21,873 nucleotides of DNA from a virus. Positions 7,691 through 21,322 of this stretch are shown piece after piece. The stretch lies in the IMG/VR virus record IMGVR_UViG_3300031576_000282, positions 1 to 21,873 of that record. The stretch is one strand, 5' to 3'. Numbering within the stretch: the first letter of the stretch is position 1; each line of letters begins with the position of its first letter. The translations under genes were made by a program, and so were the position numbers. The notes beneath the pieces are model-generated. The model ran no database searches. It had not been told where the DNA came from and saw nothing but the letters and a program-made list of their open reading frames with translations.

Positions 7691-8773
7691 ATGGATAAAA
7701 AAGAAGTAGTTTTGTCAGCAGAACAGCTTGCGACTATGATGGCAGATGCCGTCAAAGCGGCTGTTACTCCGCTTCAAGAGAAAATTGAAGCAGGGTTTAA
7801 TCGCAAAGACATTCACGGCGATCAAGTTGCGCCGGAATTGAAGGATTTGAAGGGGGTGGAAAAAGCCGCCGCGTGGTTGAAAGCCCTTGCAAAAGGTGAT
7901 TTCGCTACTGTGAAGGCTTTGTCCGAAGGTGTTGGTGCAGATGGAGGTTTCACTGTGCCGACTGAATTTCGTGCGTTGGTTGTTGAGAAGTTGATCAAGT
8001 CCAGCGTGATCCGTCCGAACGCTACGACTATTCCGATGAGCCGCAATAAGCTGGAAGTGCCAGTTGAAGGTGCGGCGGTCACTGCGTCTTGGAAAGCCGA
8101 AAACGCGGCGTTGTCCGAAGCTAATCCGACTTACGCGCAGGTAGTTTTGGATACCAACAAGCTCACGGGCTTGTCCAAGATGAGCCGCGAGTTATTGTCC
8201 GATAGTGCAATCAGTTTGGTGAATTATGTCGCAGAGAGGTTTGCGCGAGCTTTCCAAATTGAGGAGGACAAAGCGTTTATGACTGGTTCGGGAACTGGCG
8301 AGCCGAAAGGCATCCGTCAGGAAACGATTACCAGCACAGCGCAGGCTGGCGCGAACTTGGTTGCAGATGATGTCGTCAAGTTGTTCTATTCGTTGCCGAG
8401 CCAGTATCGGAAAAATGCGAGTTGGTTGATGCACAACGATGTGATCCGCTTGGTTCGGTTGCTTAAAGACACTCAGGGTCGCTATCTTTGGACTGATGGT
8501 TTCAATGATGCCCCAGCGACAATTTTGGGTCGTCCTGTGTTAGAGCAAAACGACATTCCGACTAACTTGGGTGCAGGCACTAACGAGAGCGAAATTTTCC
8601 TCGGTGATCTTTCGTATTACCTCGTGGGTGATCGGCAGTCAATGGAGGTTGAGAGTTCAACCGAAGCGGGAACTGCGTTTGAAAATCATCAATTGTGGCT
8701 CAAAGTGATTGAGCGCGTTGATGGTCGGTTGGCGTTAACTGATGCCTTCCGTAAGCTCACAGCTGTCAAATAG
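7691..8773 (+). CDS. Major capsid protein, HK97 fold
   Basis: This 360-residue capsid subunit begins with a charged, mostly helical delta-like segment (residues 1 to about 75) that would act as internal scaffold and be removed by the protease. The mature part opens with GVGADGGFTVPTEFRALVVE (80-99). Other family marks are ASWKAENAALSEANPTYAQV, LTGLSKMSRELLSDS, and EEDKAFMTGSGTGEPKGI, the usual HK97-type set. No separate scaffold gene is seen between protease and capsid genes, in keeping with the HK97 arrangement. The capsid gene follows the protease by 30 bases. Identity is secure; the cleavage site is an estimate. Confidence 0.96.
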   Translation: MDKKEVVLSAEQLATMMADAVKAAVTPLQEKIEAGFNRKDIHGDQVAPELKDLKGVEKAAAWLKALAKGDFATVKALSEGVGADGGFTVPTEFRALVVEKLIKSSVIRPNATTIPMSRNKLEVPVEGAAVTASWKAENAALSEANPTYAQVVLDTNKLTGLSKMSRELLSDSAISLVNYVAERFARAFQIEEDKAFMTGSGTGEPKGIRQETITSTAQAGANLVADDVVKLFYSLPSQYRKNASWLMHNDVIRLVRLLKDTQGRYLWTDGFNDAPATILGRPVLEQNDIPTNLGAGTNESEIFLGDLSYYLVGDRQSMEVESSTEAGTAFENHQLWLKVIERVDGRLALTDAFRKLTAVK

Positions 8774-8782
8774 TTTGTGGCT

Positions 8783-8819
8783 TGACCTCATTCCTCCGAT
8801 TTTTCGGGGGAATAGGTCA
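8783..8819 (+). other. Long RNA hairpin after the capsid gene
   Basis: TGACCT (8783-8788) pairs with AGGTCA (8814-8819), and after one bulged C, ATTCCTCCG (8790-8798) pairs with CGGGGGAAT (8805-8813) with one G-T wobble, closing a six-base loop. That is 15 base pairs in an 80-base gap. No T-run follows on either strand, so it does not look like an ordinary intrinsic terminator. It may be an mRNA-processing or stability element that shields the capsid message, or a weak attenuator before the connector genes. Confidence 0.6.
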
Positions 8820-8852
8820 GACCGAAAACAAGGTCGTGATCAAAGCAAAAAT

Positions 8853-9959: not shown

Positions 9960-10453
9960 TGGGTGCAAGATTTGAAATTAAAATTGAAAATGCCGATCAG
10001 TTTGAGCGTTTGTTCAGGGAAAGTCCGAAGGTAGTGGCGCGGGAAATTCACAACTCGCTTGATGAAGCGTCAGGTTTAGTTTTGCGCGATGCCGTGCGTG
10101 GCGCGCCTATTGGTGCAACAGCACAATTGCAAAATAGTTTGACCCGTGACATCAGACCTTTAGAAGCATCGGTATTTACAATTCAGCCATATGCCCCGCG
10201 TGTGGAGTTCGGATCGGGAGGGCGCGGTAAGGCGGGAATACCTGCAAGACCTGTTTCGCCTTCGGAGTTATTTGATTGGGCGCGGCGAAAGCTTGGCGAT
10301 GAGGGTTTGGCTTATCCGATTTCAAAGACGATTTCAAAATTCGGAACTTCGCCTCATCCGTTTATGTTGCCTGCAAAGGAAAAGAATGAGCGCAACATCA
10401 TCAAGTTATTTGAGCGAGCTATTGAAAATATCGTTAAAGCGTTGGAAACTTAA
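9959..10453 (+). CDS. Neck / tail-completion protein, HK97 gp10-like
   Basis: This 164-residue protein starts within the preceding stop (TAATG), with GAGGAGG ten bases upstream, one of the few good ribosome-binding sites here. Features resemble the HK97 gp10 group: N-terminal IKIENADQFERLFRESPKVV, a LVLRDAVRGAPIGATAQLQN segment ('A..gAPv.TG.L..S' style), VEFGSGGRGKAGIP, and a closing PHPFMLPAKEKNERNI ('p.PFm.PA.e'). These proteins connect the head neck to the tail. Confidence is high for the group. Confidence 0.83.
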   Translation: MGARFEIKIENADQFERLFRESPKVVAREIHNSLDEASGLVLRDAVRGAPIGATAQLQNSLTRDIRPLEASVFTIQPYAPRVEFGSGGRGKAGIPARPVSPSELFDWARRKLGDEGLAYPISKTISKFGTSPHPFMLPAKEKNERNIIKLFERAIENIVKALET

Positions 10454-12082: not shown

Positions 12083-12460
12083 ATGGAAAATCGTGAAACA
12101 ATTACAGTTGAAACGCCAGTCGGTAAGACAAAAGTCGTTTTGAAAGCTTATTTAACAGGTCGCGAAAAGCGGGATTTGATGAAGCCGTTTTTGCGTGGCG
12201 GTTTGGTTTTAGATCAGAAGGGTGGCGCGGAGTTAAAGAATGGAATGAATAGTGATGTGATTGAGGAAAGTGAAAATATGGCTTTCCGAACAGTCATCGT
12301 TTCGGTGGACGGCAAAAAAGACGGCGAGATATTTGATAGCAAGACTTATTCGGTAGTGGATGCGGTTTTGGATATGCACGGCGCAGATTATAGTTTCCTC
12401 GTTACAAAAATTAACGAGTTAACAAAGGACGCCGAATTTGAGAAAAAAAAAATGAGTTGA
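12083..12460 (+). CDS. Tail assembly chaperone (gpG-like)
   Basis: This 125-residue protein lies between tail tube and tape measure, the standard place for the chaperone that coats the tape measure before tube polymerisation. I chose ATG 12083 because of the promoter six bases upstream; an in-frame TTG at 12065 lies within the promoter. The N-terminus ETITVETPVGKTKVVLKAYL, then GREKRDLM, is a beta-then-helix layout seen in G-type chaperones, and the C-terminus is Lys-rich helix (FLVTKINELTKDAEFEKKK). It ends on a run of ten A just before the stop, from which a -1 shift would join it to the next ORF. Confidence 0.8.
   Translation: MENRETITVETPVGKTKVVLKAYLTGREKRDLMKPFLRGGLVLDQKGGAELKNGMNSDVIEESENMAFRTVIVSVDGKKDGEIFDSKTYSVVDAVLDMHGADYSFLVTKINELTKDAEFEKKKMS
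12443..12452 (+). other. Slippery A-run for -1 frameshift
   Basis: Ten consecutive A at the 3' end of the first chaperone are read AAA AAA AAA A in the zero frame, two codons before its stop. A one-base backward slip at A AAA AAA gives AAT GAG TTG ATG CAC..., entering the next ORF with no intervening stop. This is the usual place and direction of the G/GT frameshift in siphovirus tail chaperones. RNA polymerase slippage on the same run is an alternative. Confidence 0.7.
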
Positions 12461-12672
12461 TGCACGACTATTTGACCTTCCTTCAAAAAGGAAGCGGTCA
12501 GATAGACGAGCGGCTGGCAATGGCAATGATTTGTGAAAAGATGTGTTGGACTTATGAACAATACATTGATCAGCCGAGTTGGTTCATCAAGTTGTTGATG
12601 CTCAAATTCAGTGCGGACGCCGATTATCAAAATAAACAGAGCAAAAAACAATGGCGGCAACAGCGCAGTTAG
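12451..12672 (+). CDS. Second tail chaperone segment (T part of a G-T fusion)
   Basis: The frame continues from the slippery run; the fusion would be join(12083..12451,12451..12672), 196 residues. The T part reads NELMHDYLTFLQKGSGQ, then DERLAMAMICEKMCWTYEQY, and ends in a basic Lys/Gln/Arg tail. It could also begin separately at ATG 12460, which overlaps the first stop as TGATG, giving 70 residues. It overlaps the tape measure start by 22 bases. In lambda and many siphoviruses the ratio of short to fused form is essential for tail assembly. The content (helical, aromatic-rich, few conserved residues) fits a T domain. Confidence 0.72.
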   Translation, partial: NELMHDYLTFLQKGSGQIDERLAMAMICEKMCWTYEQYIDQPSWFIKLLMLKFSADADYQNKQSKKQWRQQRS

Positions 12673-16088: not shown

Positions 16089-18911
16089 ATGTCGCTTGTA
16101 AAAGTAAATGCTGGTGAGAAAATTTTTGCGGCAGATCATAACAGTTTGGTTGACGGGATAATTGCCGCGCAACACGATTTATATAACCTTTTTTTACAGG
16201 CATATTTTGACGGGAAAAGTCCGAACTCATCGGGCATCATTTTTGACGGATTGATTGATACGACTAAAACCGATACCATAAAAAGCAACGGGAAATTGGT
16301 TTTCAAGGCGGCAAGCGGACAGGATAAGTTGAAATTGGAAGTTGGTCAGGGTTCGCAATTCGGCGTTGGTAAAACAATCGCTATTTATGATGGTGTCAAT
16401 CACGAGGAAAAAGTTATTCAAGCAGTTAACCTCAATCAAAGCGGTGGTGGCGCGGCGGCGTTCACGGAAAATTTTGAATCTTATACGCTAGGTGCTATTG
16501 GTGGTCAAGGCAACTGGACTGGTGCGGGAACTGTCGTATCAAGTCCTGCCCTTGAAGGCACGAAAACATTACAGATTTCAGGCGGAACAGGTCCTGAAAG
16601 TTCGGCATTATTAACCACGATTGCTGGTCTTACGGGTAGTATTCAGAGCTACGCTTGGAAAGTCCGATACGATAGTTATCCCTCTAGTGGCGGCAATGGT
16701 GCGGTATTTCATTTAAAGAGTGGCGCGACTGATGTTATTAATATTCGTTCAGTAGCGATTAGCGGCACAATACAAGTTCGTCACAATACTTCTTACCGCA
16801 ATACGAAAGTTGGTGGCTTTATCCCGACATTGACTACGACTTATCTTTTTATCGTTGAATATAATAAAACTCTTGGTACTTATCGTCTTAAAACTGGAAG
16901 TGAACAATGGTCGCCTTGGAACTCTATATCAGCAGGCGGCACTTCGGGCAATATAGATAACCTTGAAATTGAAAGGGATCGGGTTAATGGAAGCGTCTAT
17001 TTTGATATTATGCAGGGCTATAATAGCAACGCTGATGCTATTGGAATTTTTGATGAAATTGATTTGACTACTAACCTTGCCAACACATTCGGCAATGACA
17101 AAGCGAAAGACGATTTTGAGAGCTATACTAGCGGCGCGTCAATCAGTGGCTTGAATGGTGGAAGCGGATGGGCTGGTGCTTATAATGCTTTGGCGACAGC
17201 CCCGACAATTGCAGTTGATCAGTTTTATGACGGCGCGCAATCGGTCAAGATTGTTACGGGAAGTGGCAATGGTTTTGATCGGGCAATTGTAAAAATGGCT
17301 TATGGTCAGCTTACAATTCGTTTCCGCAAAGACAATGCGAGCAATCCTGAAAGCTGGATAACGCTTTATGAGGGAACGACTAAAAGAATTAGGATACAGA
17401 TAAGCAACACTCCTGCTGTTCATCAGCAATATAACAATGGCGCGAGTAGTGATAGCTTAGGAGCTTACACCGCAAATGTTTGGCACACGATAACAGTGAG
17501 TTGGAACAAAACTACGGGTAAGTTTTGGGCGGCGTTAAATACGGCAGATGCCCCCGCTGAGCGCGATGTTGAAAGTCCCTCTGACTTCAAAGGTATTGAT
17601 AAAATTGAGGTTAAACATATTGACGGCGTGGCAGGCAACACTTGGTTTGATTTGATTGAAATTCAACCATACAGTCACGAAGCTACCCTCGCCCGAACAT
17701 CAGCAATTATTTCAGAACAGACGGGTAAAACAATCCGTGAAACTTTTGATACCTATATTGCAGGACAAGACATCGCTGGTAAAAATGGAGGGTTCGGTTG
17801 GTCGGGAGCTTGGGTGGACGCAAACGCAGGTGCGGGCATAGAGATATTTTCCGAAACTGCTCCGTCAGGCGGACAAGGCGGTTTGGCGGCGAAAACTACA
17901 AGTCCGATGGATTTGGCAGGTGCAACAAGTTATTACCGAGAGTTCACTGGAAGGACAAAAGGCAAGGTTCGGTTTTGGCATAGGCAATCAATAAGCACTG
18001 TGAGGAGTGCTTATGGTTTGCGGTTCGGCGGAACTAACGCTTTTAGTATTAGATTTATGACGAACGGCAACATAGAAGCACTAGGAACAGGCACGACAAC
18101 CGTTCAGGCATATGTAGTAAATACTTGGTATGAGATTGAAGCCGAGTTTGATGCTTCGCTTGGCACAAACGGACAGGTCAAAGTTTCGGTTATCGGCGGA
18201 AGTTCAACGGCATTTTTGGAAGCGGCAGTTGATTTTACTACAATCAGTCGTTTCAATGCGTCCTATGGTGCTGGCGGCGAGCCGACAGGTGGCGAGTTTT
18301 GGTTTGATGATGTTCGGGTGATTGAAAGCGAGCAGTTTCAAGTTGGACTAAAACGGGCATTGCATCATTCCATCAATAATCGCTTCAATCAAGAAATGGC
18401 TATTGCGGGAATTTGGGTGATGCGAAATCGTCCGAGCAAATATAATTTAGCTTCATCAATTGCAGTCAGTGCAACTACCTTGACGATCACGGGCGACAAG
18501 ACAGCAGAATTTGCGAATGGCGACACGATTGATATTGCGGATCAGTTTAACAATGTTCGGGAAAGGAAAACCCTCACTGCAACTCCGACTTTCGGATCGG
18601 GAGTAACAACGCTGACCTTTACTCCGAGCGTGGTCAACGCAACCGGTTTTGCTACAACGGCGACAGTTGAGCGCGTTGATATTTTGCCAAAGATGAGCAT
18701 TGTTGACAACAACGCAACGGAAAGTTTGGCTAGTCCGACTTATCAGAAAACATTGGAGGTCACTGTTGACGGGGAAGCGTTGGTTGAGGACGAATATCAA
18801 TACAGTCCTAGTCCCGCAAATAATGATGTGGTTTTGCAATTATTATTGACGCGAAATACTACCGCAGTTGTGCCAAAGGTCAAAAGATACGGAATTGCAC
18901 TAAACCCTTAA
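16089..18911 (+). CDS. Long tail fibre with three tandem jelly-roll (LamG/ConA-like) modules
   Basis: This 940-residue protein is the longest in the window and the likely host-recognition fibre. Residues 1-60 are an N-terminal attachment part (KVNAGEKIFAADHNSLVDGI). Three divergent jelly-roll modules follow: about 125-308 (opening FTENFESYTLGAIGGQGNW), 341-525 (KDDFESYTSGASISGLNGGS) and 549-744 (IRETFDTYIAGQDIAGKNGG). Each ends in an Asp/Trp strand (GSVYFDIMQ; GNTWFDLIEI; GEFWFDDVRV). This is the layout of concanavalin-like carbohydrate-binding domains. Residues about 745-940 form a beta-rich tip (LTITGDKTAEFANGDTIDIA; LEVTVDGEALVEDEYQYS). It starts four bases after the previous stop with no Shine-Dalgarno. 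Confidence 0.82.
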   Translation: MSLVKVNAGEKIFAADHNSLVDGIIAAQHDLYNLFLQAYFDGKSPNSSGIIFDGLIDTTKTDTIKSNGKLVFKAASGQDKLKLEVGQGSQFGVGKTIAIYDGVNHEEKVIQAVNLNQSGGGAAAFTENFESYTLGAIGGQGNWTGAGTVVSSPALEGTKTLQISGGTGPESSALLTTIAGLTGSIQSYAWKVRYDSYPSSGGNGAVFHLKSGATDVINIRSVAISGTIQVRHNTSYRNTKVGGFIPTLTTTYLFIVEYNKTLGTYRLKTGSEQWSPWNSISAGGTSGNIDNLEIERDRVNGSVYFDIMQGYNSNADAIGIFDEIDLTTNLANTFGNDKAKDDFESYTSGASISGLNGGSGWAGAYNALATAPTIAVDQFYDGAQSVKIVTGSGNGFDRAIVKMAYGQLTIRFRKDNASNPESWITLYEGTTKRIRIQISNTPAVHQQYNNGASSDSLGAYTANVWHTITVSWNKTTGKFWAALNTADAPAERDVESPSDFKGIDKIEVKHIDGVAGNTWFDLIEIQPYSHEATLARTSAIISEQTGKTIRETFDTYIAGQDIAGKNGGFGWSGAWVDANAGAGIEIFSETAPSGGQGGLAAKTTSPMDLAGATSYYREFTGRTKGKVRFWHRQSISTVRSAYGLRFGGTNAFSIRFMTNGNIEALGTGTTTVQAYVVNTWYEIEAEFDASLGTNGQVKVSVIGGSSTAFLEAAVDFTTISRFNASYGAGGEPTGGEFWFDDVRVIESEQFQVGLKRALHHSINNRFNQEMAIAGIWVMRNRPSKYNLASSIAVSATTLTITGDKTAEFANGDTIDIADQFNNVRERKTLTATPTFGSGVTTLTFTPSVVNATGFATTATVERVDILPKMSIVDNNATESLASPTYQKTLEVTVDGEALVEDEYQYSPSPANNDVVLQLLLTRNTTAVVPKVKRYGIALNP

Positions 18912-19296: not shown

Positions 19297-19416
19297 ATGG
19301 ACGAGGATGAGGTTGAAATTGAACAAGAGCGAGTTGAACAGATGGCTTGTGGCAATTGCGGCGCGATAGTTTTCAGCGATGAAGCGCGTTGCCCTGATTG
19401 CAACGAGCCGATGTGA
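19297..19416 (+). CDS. Tiny zinc-ribbon protein
   Basis: This 39-residue ORF starts at ATG 19297, three bases after the previous stop, and ends at TGA 19414-19416. The N-terminal 15 residues are acidic (MDEDEVEIEQERVEQ); the rest is ACGNCGAIVFSDEARCPDCN, a C-x2-C...C-x2-C zinc ribbon with an 11-residue spacer. Such small ribbons are common in phages and Patescibacteria and may bind protein or nucleic acid. The complete four-cysteine set argues against a chance ORF. Confidence 0.65.
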   Translation: MDEDEVEIEQERVEQMACGNCGAIVFSDEARCPDCNEPM

Positions 19417-19426
19417 TTGTCCTTTG

Positions 19427-19527
19427 ATCGCGCCTTTTGAGGGGGGCGCAAACAGCCCGAAAGGGCAAAGCGGCTATCAAGCGGGGTTTTTATAAACATA
19501 AGGTCGTCCTTGCTTGATGGGCGCGAT
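19427..19527 (+). ncRNA. Candidate structured RNA between zinc ribbon and endolysin
   Basis: This 128-base gap is unusually rich in complementary segments. An outer helix joins ATCGCGCC (19427-19434) to GGCGCGAT (19520-19527), 8 perfect pairs across 85 bases. Inside it are GCCC-GAAA-GGGC (19455-19466), a GNRA-capped hairpin; a helix ATCAAGC (19476-19482) with GCTTGAT (19512-19518), plus one wobble; GTTT-TTAT-AAAC (19486-19497); and AAGG-TCGT-CCTT (19500-19511). The 3' strands of the last, middle and outer helices are contiguous, allowing stacking. The 5' outer strand could instead pair locally (GCGCC 19430-19434 with GGCGC 19445-19449), a switch-like alternative. The endolysin ATG lies 17 bases downstream. 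Not assigned to a known RNA family. Confidence 0.5.
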
Positions 19528-19544
19528 GAGAGGATAATAAAGGT

Positions 19545-20123
19545 ATGAGGTATCAAATTCCACACACAAATTACGAGGTCGGGCGGCACGGATATGCTAT
19601 CGCGGGAGTGATTGTTCATATTCAGCAGGGCTATCAGAAAGGCACGATTGATTGGTTTATGAACGCAATCAGTCAGGTATCATCGCATTGCGCGGTGGCG
19701 AAAGACGGATCGGATGACGACTTTGTTGATTACGGGGACACCGCATACCACGCGGGCAGGGTCAATCAGCCCATTTGGTCGGGGATGAAACCTAACGCGT
19801 TCGGCGGTTGGGTCAATCCGAACTACTACACATATGGCATTGAGTGTGAGGGTTTTCGTGGCGATAGATGGACAGAGCCGCAGATGGTCAAGTTGGTTGC
19901 ACGCGTCAAAGCCGCATTGGATTTCGCAAAACTTCCTTATACCCGAAAATATGTTGTGAGCCACAACGAGATCACCGCTGACAAAGAGGATATGCGTGAG
20001 TGGTGCGATGAGGTCATCAGGCGTTTGAATACCCCCGCAGTAGTGCCAGTTCCGCCTCAATCCGCAAAACAGGAAATGGTCGGAATGCTTGAAAAAGCAT
20101 TGGAGATTGCAAAAAAGCTATGA
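19545..20123 (+). CDS. Endolysin: N-acetylmuramoyl-L-alanine amidase (Amidase_2)
   Basis: This 192-residue enzyme cleaves the amide bond between N-acetylmuramic acid and L-alanine in peptidoglycan to lyse the host. Zinc-ligand and catalytic segments are visible: VIVHIQQG (H25), AYHAGRVN (67-74), YGIECEGF (E100), VSHNEITADKEDM (H140, K147, D149). The catalytic domain spans about 1-165; the C-terminal 25 residues after a Pro-rich linker (PAVVPVPPQS) are a helix, not a recognised wall-binding domain. There is no signal peptide, so release would depend on a holin. Its GATAAT, six bases before ATG, may be a weak -10; AAAGGT just before ATG is an alternative weak ribosome site. It overlaps the holin gene (ATGA). 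Confidence 0.92.
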   Translation: MRYQIPHTNYEVGRHGYAIAGVIVHIQQGYQKGTIDWFMNAISQVSSHCAVAKDGSDDDFVDYGDTAYHAGRVNQPIWSGMKPNAFGGWVNPNYYTYGIECEGFRGDRWTEPQMVKLVARVKAALDFAKLPYTRKYVVSHNEITADKEDMREWCDEVIRRLNTPAVVPVPPQSAKQEMVGMLEKALEIAKKL

Positions 20124-20314
20124 CGAAACACATTTTGACGAGCAAGATGGTTTGGTTCAACCTGATTTATACGCTTGGCGAGGTGATCCTGTTGGTGAAG
20201 GACATCGTGCCAGTGGCGTATGTGCCTTATGTGATGGCATTACAGGGGACAATCAACATCGTCCTGCGAGTTTGGTTCACGAACACGACACTGACAATGA
20301 CAAATGAGCAGTAA
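20120..20314 (+). CDS. Holin
   Basis: This 64-residue membrane protein starts within the endolysin stop (ATGA), the usual coupled lysis pair. The sequence MTKHILTSKMVWFNLIYTLG, then VILLVKDIVP, AYVPYVMALQGTINIVLRVW, resembles small phage holins of the pattern 'SK..W.N.i..l', a Pro-containing turn and a second helix ending 'INIVLR'. Two membrane segments are likely (about 12-27 and 31-48). A charged, Thr-rich tail follows. It would permeabilise the membrane and release the amidase. Confidence 0.8.
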   Translation: MTKHILTSKMVWFNLIYTLGEVILLVKDIVPVAYVPYVMALQGTINIVLRVWFTNTTLTMTNEQ

Positions 20315-20325
20315 TGTGCTATAGT
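20297..20325 (+). promoter_or_regulatory. Full promoter: -35 plus extended -10
   Basis: ATGACA (20297-20302, one mismatch from TTGACA) is separated by 17 bases from TATAGT (20320-20325), which is preceded by TGC. This is the most complete promoter in the window. It overlaps the end of the holin gene and points to a non-coding stretch, with transcription predicted from about 20332. Confidence 0.7.
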
Positions 20326-20331
20326 CGGTAA

Positions 20332-20454
20332 TTGTCTATGCACTGTCACCTGTTATTGGGCTTCGGCGCGACAACAGGCAGGTTAGATCAAGGACTGTCG
20401 GATATTTATATCGCGACTTTCAACAAAGAAATGCCCCGCAAGGGGTGTTTTTTT
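20332..20454 (+). ncRNA. Candidate small RNA of about 120 bases with its own promoter and terminator
   Basis: Between a full promoter and an intrinsic terminator there is no credible gene. The transcript would contain a long hairpin, CCTGTT (20349-20354) with AACAGG (20373-20378), extended inward past two mismatches to a C(TTCG)G tetraloop at 20361-20366; a second hairpin, GTCGGATA (20397-20404) with TATC-G-CGAC (20409-20417) around TTTA; and the terminator hairpin (20431-20454). UUCG and GNRA loops are features of stable functional RNAs. A 50-codon frame from ATG 20338 runs through the terminator and is unlikely. Possible roles are regulation of phage or host genes, a packaging RNA or a host-interference RNA; the sequence does not tell which. 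Confidence 0.6.
20431..20454 (+). terminator. Intrinsic terminator of the small RNA
   Basis: ATGCCCC (20431-20437) pairs with GGGGTGT (20442-20448), with two G-T wobbles, around a GCAA tetraloop and runs into seven T (20448-20454). It is strong and well formed. Confidence 0.9.
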
Positions 20455-20470
20455 ACCTCAAAACAGCTAT

Positions 20471-20487
20471 GTATATCGTGGTATACT
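20471..20487 (+). promoter_or_regulatory. Promoter with overlapping inverted repeat before transglycosylase
   Basis: TGGTATACT (20479-20487) fits an extended -10 and lies after the small-RNA terminator. GTATA (20471-20475) and TATAC (20482-20486) form an inverted repeat over it, a possible operator. Seven bases further is an ATG (20495) opening a five-codon mini-ORF (MGGRR, ends TAA 20510-20512) that contains GGAGGT, followed by 31 bases before the ATG of the transglycosylase. The mini-ORF may be a leader peptide or chance. Confidence 0.5.
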
Positions 20488-20543
20488 TAGGTTGATGGGC
20501 GGACGGAGGTAAGGTTCGTGTTGGGTTGATCCGTTCATCACCT

Positions 20544-21014
20544 ATGGCAAGCATTTTACAGAGGGCTGTGATGTGGTTCATCGGGTTCGGTATAGCGTTA
20601 GCGATGACCCCTCACGATCCTTCAAATAGCGGGATCGGGCAGGAATTATGGGTAGAAGTTGAGCAAACGAGCTTATACGCTCAAACACCCGTTATTTCAG
20701 AGCGAGCGCGCGTGATTGCCTTGATTTCGCAATATAGCAAAGAGTTCGGAGTGGATTTTGATTTAGCTTATACGATAGCGGAATTAGAGAGTGATTTCGT
20801 AGTCACTGCGAAAAACCCTCACAGTTCGGCATCGGGAGTTTTCCAGTTTGTCGCAAGCACTTGGCAGGGGTATTGTTCGGGCAATGTTTTCAACGCGGAC
20901 GACAATGTTCGGTGCGCCTTGAAACTATTGGCGGAACGCAACGGGATAAAATATTGGCTTGCGGACAAAAGTATGGTTGATAGGTTAAGATTGCGGGGGT
21001 ATGTGTTCAATTAA
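20544..21014 (+). CDS. Lytic transglycosylase (SLT-like) with N-terminal membrane segment
   Basis: This 156-residue enzyme cuts the glycan strand of peptidoglycan between MurNAc and GlcNAc. I chose ATG 20544 (MASILQRAVMWFIGFGIALA); a TTG at 20526 is possible but less likely. Residues 8-21 are a signal or anchor helix. The catalytic domain reads FGVDFDLAYTIAELESDFVV (catalytic Glu likely E82 in the 'ES' pair), then KNPHSSASGVFQFVASTWQG and NADDNVRCALKLLAERNGIK. It differs from the endolysin: it has its own promoter and an export signal. It may weaken the wall for genome entry or release. The sequence style (SERARVIALISQYSKEFGVD; SSASGVFQF; DDNVRCALKLLA) is like transglycosylases I recall from Patescibacteria. 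Confidence 0.85.
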   Translation: MASILQRAVMWFIGFGIALAMTPHDPSNSGIGQELWVEVEQTSLYAQTPVISERARVIALISQYSKEFGVDFDLAYTIAELESDFVVTAKNPHSSASGVFQFVASTWQGYCSGNVFNADDNVRCALKLLAERNGIKYWLADKSMVDRLRLRGYVFN

Positions 21015-21050: not shown

Positions 21051-21091
21051 ATTTATTATATGGCTGATTGGCGGTATTGACAAAGCTATGG

Positions 21092-21100
21092 TGTTATGAT
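21092..21100 (+). promoter_or_regulatory. Weak extended -10 before the zinc-ribbon gene
   Basis: TGTTATGAT resembles the extended -10 consensus and lies 12 bases before ATG 21113. A perfect TTGACA is present at 21077-21082 but only 12 bases away, too close for a standard pair. Since a terminator sits just upstream, some promoter is needed here. Confidence 0.4.
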
Positions 21101-21112
21101 ATGCTATCAGCT

Positions 21113-21322
21113 ATGAAAAACAATCAAAAGCGAAAGAAGTGTCCTCGTTGCGGCAAGTCGTATGTCGGTTTTCCTGCTTTGAGCCGTAGGGATAATAAGA
21201 CAGATATTTGCTCAAAGTGCGGCACGGAGGAAGCGATGGTTGATTACGCGTATGTCGGCGCGCCGCGTGAATGGATACGCGACAGGGCATTTATGATCCA
21301 GTTGATCCGAAACAAAAAATAA
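21113..21322 (+). CDS. Zinc-ribbon protein of a common phage family
   Basis: This 69-residue protein starts at ATG 21113; an in-frame ATG at 21101 would add four residues. It reads KKCPRCGKSYVGFPALSRRD, then NKTDICSKCGTEEAMVDYAY, and ends in an Arg-rich helix (PREWIRDRAFMIQLIRNKK). The pattern 'CP.CG..Y..yPALSR.Dn.t.IC..CG..EAm' is a recurrent small phage and plasmid protein with two C-x2-C pairs that bind zinc. The role is unknown but probably involves nucleic acid or protein binding. It overlaps the next gene as TAATG. Confidence 0.75.
   Translation: MKNNQKRKKCPRCGKSYVGFPALSRRDNKTDICSKCGTEEAMVDYAYVGAPREWIRDRAFMIQLIRNKK

Follow-up and report, generated by a model that had tools for sequence, protein, structure and literature searches.

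A putative promoter-driven, two-hairpin RNA unit in the lysis region of a phage placed among viruses of Patescibacteria

What occupies the 229 nt that separate a holin-like ORF from a transglycosylase gene (ATG 20544) in the phage DNA of the incomplete IMG/VR record IMGVR_UViG_3300031576_000282? We analysed the whole stretch of 21,873 nucleotides (hereafter the window), of which this is the largest internal non-coding gap. A preliminary description, made from the sequence alone, had proposed a self-contained small-RNA gene of about 120 bases, framed by its own promoter and terminator. At the sequence level this anatomy is supported, with a predicted RNA of 123 nt within 20297-20454.

Anatomy of the unit

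The features of the locus in the window are as follows.

20120-20314, + strand: holin-like ORF of 64 amino acids
20297-20325, + strand: sigma70-type promoter with extended -10 (ATGACA, 17 bases, TGC-TATAGT)
20332-20454, + strand: predicted non-coding transcript of ~123 nt, from the -10 position (which sets its start), the fold and the non-coding frame
20332-20391, + strand: hairpin 1, a long irregular stem with apical GC(UUCG)GC
20393-20421, + strand: hairpin 2, arms GUCGGAUA/UAUCGCGAC
20425-20454, + strand: intrinsic terminator, AAAGAAAUGCCCC-GCAA-GGGGUGUUUUUUU
20479-20487, + strand: second extended -10 (TGG-TATACT) between terminator and transglycosylase, weak, with no good -35
20544-21014, + strand: SLT transglycosylase (Pfam SLT, 1.3e-6)

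The 64-aa ORF has no match in Pfam or PHROGs, so that its earlier label as a holin is positional only; it does align, at 36% identity, with the small ORF that lies in the same place in the related phage G003, between amidase and transglycosylase. The transglycosylase ORF opens at TTG 20526, with ATG 20544 or 20571 as the likelier starts.

The claimed promoter is present, and its -35 element overlaps the last codons of the holin-like gene. It matches at 10 of 12 positions, with a 17-base spacer and an extended -10 (TG-N-TATAGT). Such quality is far above chance: only two sites of this class (at least 10/12, spacer 17, TG) occur in the window, at 20297 and 21077, whereas shuffled whole windows hold 0.05 on average, both strands included. 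The related phages (595 kb) hold eight sites of the class, most of them directly 5' of genes; that it normally precedes genes there, not RNAs, is counted against the small-RNA reading. Strong extended -10 promoters with an ATG 7-9 bases past the -10 were also seen at 21077-21113 of the window and, on the minus strand, at 4257 of contig L012 and 7674 of contig L051, and the genes at these three places are probably leaderless. A Shine-Dalgarno sequence is absent from many genes of the window phage.

The predicted transcript folds with -43.8 kcal/mol (z -4.1), and none of 1000 shuffles was as good. Without the terminator, the RNA body has a z of -2.8 (p about 0.009, ~1% of shuffles being equal), which is just moderately unusual because z <= -2.5 is seen in ~5% of 95-nt windows across the phage genome. 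Hairpin 2 alone (20392-20426) reaches z -3.5 (p about 0.001). The two extra hairpins of the preliminary description, one of them tipped by C(UUCG)G, are both there and well defined: pair probabilities in hairpin 1 are mostly 0.8-1.0, with basal pairs at 0.5-0.6, and nearly all inner pairs of the two hairpins have a probability of at least 0.8.

The accompanying statement that the interval holds no credible ORF overlooked a frame at 20332-20490 that spans it, with 52 codons from TTG 20332 or 50 from ATG 20338; what stands is that its codon usage is non-coding and that no stop precedes the terminator. The codon score of the frame (-0.14) lies under that of every real 50-codon coding segment of the phage and equals the median of wrong frames, and neither a family match nor a tblastn match was found for it. 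Its stop codon lies 36 bases past the terminator, which is thus inside the frame, and a message would therefore carry no stop codon.

The strong terminator can be seen plainly, in sequence and folds alike, as a 13-bp hairpin with a GCAA loop and a U7 tail, yet it is absent from the list of predicted terminators, probably because the whole stem runs into the U tract. It probably also ends the late/lysis operon. In the nascent-RNA pairing test its 5' arm was free (mean pairing 0.22, CCCC 0.03), compared with a mean pairing of 0.56-0.74 and a core of about 1.0 in three likely attenuators of relatives that served as positive examples, and no antiterminator competing for the arm was found. This comparison makes a transcription attenuator or riboswitch leader unlikely. 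As its arm is left free, the terminator looks unconditional, and the unit would therefore be better read as a small transcript or a late-mRNA 3' end than as a switch.

Related phages and known phage RNAs

Relatives of the window phage in viral contigs are 56-65% identical in TerL and 31-65% in a tail protein. The tail protein is also found in seven genome-collection contigs, all seven assigned to Patescibacteria (Falkowbacteria, Peribacteria, Taylorbacteria, Nomurabacteria and unnamed groups), and through these relatives the phage can be placed with Patescibacteria viruses. Near-identical terminators, CCCCGCAAGGGG with A- and U-rich flanks, recur in many Patescibacteria genomes, which fits this placement.

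The surroundings of the unit differ among the relatives. In G003 no bases separate the stop codon of the holin-position gene from the transglycosylase, and a terminator lies 3' of the latter; in L020, which is the closest relative when the tail protein is compared, the gap between the two genes is about 60 bases. In G001 a plain terminator comes after the holin-position gene, and after it the TTGACA / TGTGATACAAT promoter of the next gene. When 715 kb were scanned systematically for units of 50-260 nt that run from a promoter to a terminator, just four came up, including that of the window. At 10212-10340 (+) of L020, in the early region, a promoter, a structured stretch of ~100 nt with a weak fold (z -1.75) and a terminator precede a gene.

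No homologue of the RNA body was found in the related phages or in 380 Patescibacteria genomes, where the only matches were driven by the terminator or were short and due to chance. Rfam had no match to the window. Hairpin 1 was not recovered in pattern scans of viral contigs, blastn and tblastn against phages and plasmids gave nothing useful, and searches of viral contigs with the amidase and the transglycosylase found no relatives. The single-sequence covariance model R2 had weak matches in 32 of the 380 genomes, which were rejected as terminator matches, one of them aligning the RNA body to a tRNA-like sequence. The covariance search proposed as a check thus recovered the terminator, as a common Patescibacteria type, and not the RNA body; nor did homologous phages, at just 55-70% protein identity, preserve the hairpins and promoter. 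With no homologue found, no conservation or covariation backs a function or a conserved sRNA family; but an orphan sRNA would not be expected to be kept over the distance to even the nearest relatives (55-70% protein identity), and the unit may be a young sRNA gene. Within what was compared, the unit appears specific to the window lineage.

The functions suggested earlier were followed up in turn with the known classes of RNA. A packaging RNA finds no backing, as 19380-20600 has no Rfam match at E <= 5, a phi29-type pRNA included, the phage has an ordinary TerL (Terminase_6C/PHROG 38) and an HK97-type capsid, and the unit lies between lysis genes, not at a genome end. No tRNA or tmRNA was matched in the unit by ARAGORN or Rfam. 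Target prediction gave the regulator suggestion no help either: when duplexes were predicted with every start region of the window and with the upstream element described below, no site in the phage mRNAs stood out over shuffled RNA (p 0.29). With a possible RNA anti-CRISPR in mind, a solitary mimic of a host CRISPR repeat, the 380 Patescibacteria genomes were compared with the unit, and the repeat-like matches were confined to short pieces due to chance.

Among phage RNAs, OOP is terminator-capped. Small RNAs such as lambda OOP and P22 sar are transcribed from a promoter of their own and carry an intrinsic terminator (PMC12197685), and the window unit, as predicted, resembles them in being a short, promoter-driven, non-coding phage RNA; those RNAs, however, lie antisense to a known gene or have targets that are known, whereas the unit has neither an antisense partner nor a target above chance. 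The ipeX RNA is a 3'-end-derived phage sRNA that is processed from a phage porin transcript (PMC12197685), and shares with the unit the position of a structured RNA at a phage mRNA 3' end. Unlike ipeX, the unit is directly preceded by a promoter and shows no sign of processing. A literature search for small RNAs in Patescibacteria viruses retrieved no paper devoted to the subject.

Other RNA elements of the phage group

Two further kinds of structured RNA were recognized in the window and its relatives.

Window 19415-19542 (+); L012 15306-15188 (-), in G001; L013 9210-9336 (+), in G003: conserved structured RNA before the endolysin gene
L017 9121-9260; L019 about 2290-2440; L015 about 7880-8032: portal promoter, leader and terminator with mutually exclusive antiterminator

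The first of these, 128 nt long and ~900 bases upstream of the 20297-20454 unit, begins at the stop codon of the small gene in front of it and ends just before the ATG of the amidase (endolysin). Its parts are a closing stem of 14 bp, a hairpin of 5 bp whose loop, UUGAGGG, is conserved, a small hairpin that varies, and an arm of 16 bp with the loop GGUCG; among the three sequences 14 pairs are changed on both sides, against 0-3 when the partners are slid. No Rfam match was found for it in the window at E <= 5, and it was not found in the 380 Patescibacteria genomes or the other phages searched. Three pattern matches were examined as further copies and rejected, being the known G001 record and two chance matches within coding sequence. 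The 20297-20454 unit was likewise rejected as a second copy, as model R1 gives no match there. The element is probably a cis-acting part of the lysis operon. Ahead of the downstream gene, purine-rich runs that resemble a Shine-Dalgarno sequence lie in the 3' strand of its closing stem, which makes control of lysis at the level of translation a plausible guess. By these sequence comparisons the endolysin element is better supported than the 20297-20454 unit.

The second kind is found between terL and the portal gene in G004, G005 and G006, where a promoter is followed by a leader of ~100 nt and a long terminator, with its U tract ending at the ATG of the portal gene. In all three, a leader hairpin occupies the 5' arm of the terminator while the 3' arm has yet to be made (pairing of about 1.0 in the core), because of which the leader is likely to be a conserved transcription attenuator. 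The 20297-20454 unit is similar to it in promoter class, in a leader-sized stretch of ~100 nt, in its strong terminator and in the phage group, but the portal leaders have an exclusive antiterminator and a U tract that reaches the start codon, and the unit has neither.

Some other observations concern RNA structure and expression in these phages. A very stable hairpin (z -4.2) lies directly 3' of the major capsid gene at 8780-8840 (+) of the window, where the lowest sliding-window z of the whole window falls, and inverted repeats seem to be present after the capsid gene in G001 and G003 too. At 12440-12672 (+) a 71-codon frame overlaps the end of a 131-aa ORF 5' of the tape-measure gene; the overlap, at the A-rich stretch GAAAAAAAGAAG, resembles the programmed frameshift of tail chaperones. 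The related contig L026 carries a DUF3800-IX RNA (Rfam, 44.8 bits) at 16096-16161 (-).

Readings of the unit

The reading we prefer, with about even confidence, is that of a lineage-specific, unconditionally terminated non-coding transcript of ~123 nt whose terminator also ends the lysis mRNA. The promoter at 20297, overlapping the end of the holin-like gene, would make a two-hairpin RNA that stops at the intrinsic terminator (20454), and the long late/lysis mRNA would end at the same terminator, 20425-20454. With the terminator common to both, the structured segment would exist as an sRNA and as the 3' end of an mRNA. It would also insulate the transglycosylase, which would use its own weak promoter, from late transcription. 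We infer the transcription of the unit, the transcript ends and the late-operon stop at 20454 from the sequence. If the RNA acts, it would most simply do so by base-pairing regulation or by protecting the lysis mRNA at its 3' end. That it is a recently acquired trans-acting sRNA, made as lysis begins and controlling lysis timing or a host mRNA or defence, seems rather improbable.

Possible, if doubtful, is that the segment is no more than the 3' UTR of the late/lysis operon with its terminator, the promoter match being accidental or weak and no separate RNA gene being present. Of all parts of the unit the terminator is supported best, the corresponding gene of G001 is followed by a plain terminator before the next promoter, and in G003 a terminator comes after the transglycosylase. 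Yet a promoter of this quality, expected 0.05 times per window, sits exactly 5' of the structured stretch, and a bare terminator does not need 100 extra structured bases. The likely attenuators before the portal gene show that a promoter, leader, terminator and antiterminator architecture exists in the group (three related phages), and the transglycosylase is otherwise without a strong promoter; both points would suit a regulated leader in which the 20297 promoter drives the transglycosylase and the terminator acts as attenuator. We consider this leader unlikely, as no structure competes for the terminator arm, the ~90 nt from the terminator to the gene start include a separate extended -10, and the transglycosylase directly follows the holin-position gene in G003 and L020. 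A protein gene is unlikely too, and a leaderless small-protein gene of 50-52 codons, starting at TTG 20332 or ATG 20338, very much so. Its start codon would lie 6 or 12 bases past the -10 in an open frame, and three other promoters of the class in the group have an ATG 7-9 bases past the -10; but the codon score falls under all true coding segments, no homologue was found, and the terminator within the frame would leave the message without a stop codon.

Viruses of Patescibacteria are known almost solely from sequence. If it is transcribed, the unit would provide an early case of a non-coding RNA driven by a promoter in a Patescibacteria phage, and were it a trans-acting sRNA, few if any RNA regulators would have been proposed earlier for phages of the radiation. 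Together, the endolysin element, the likely portal attenuator and the unit suggest that control at the RNA level is common in this phage group; the first two are the better-supported RNA regulators and offer concrete targets for testing.
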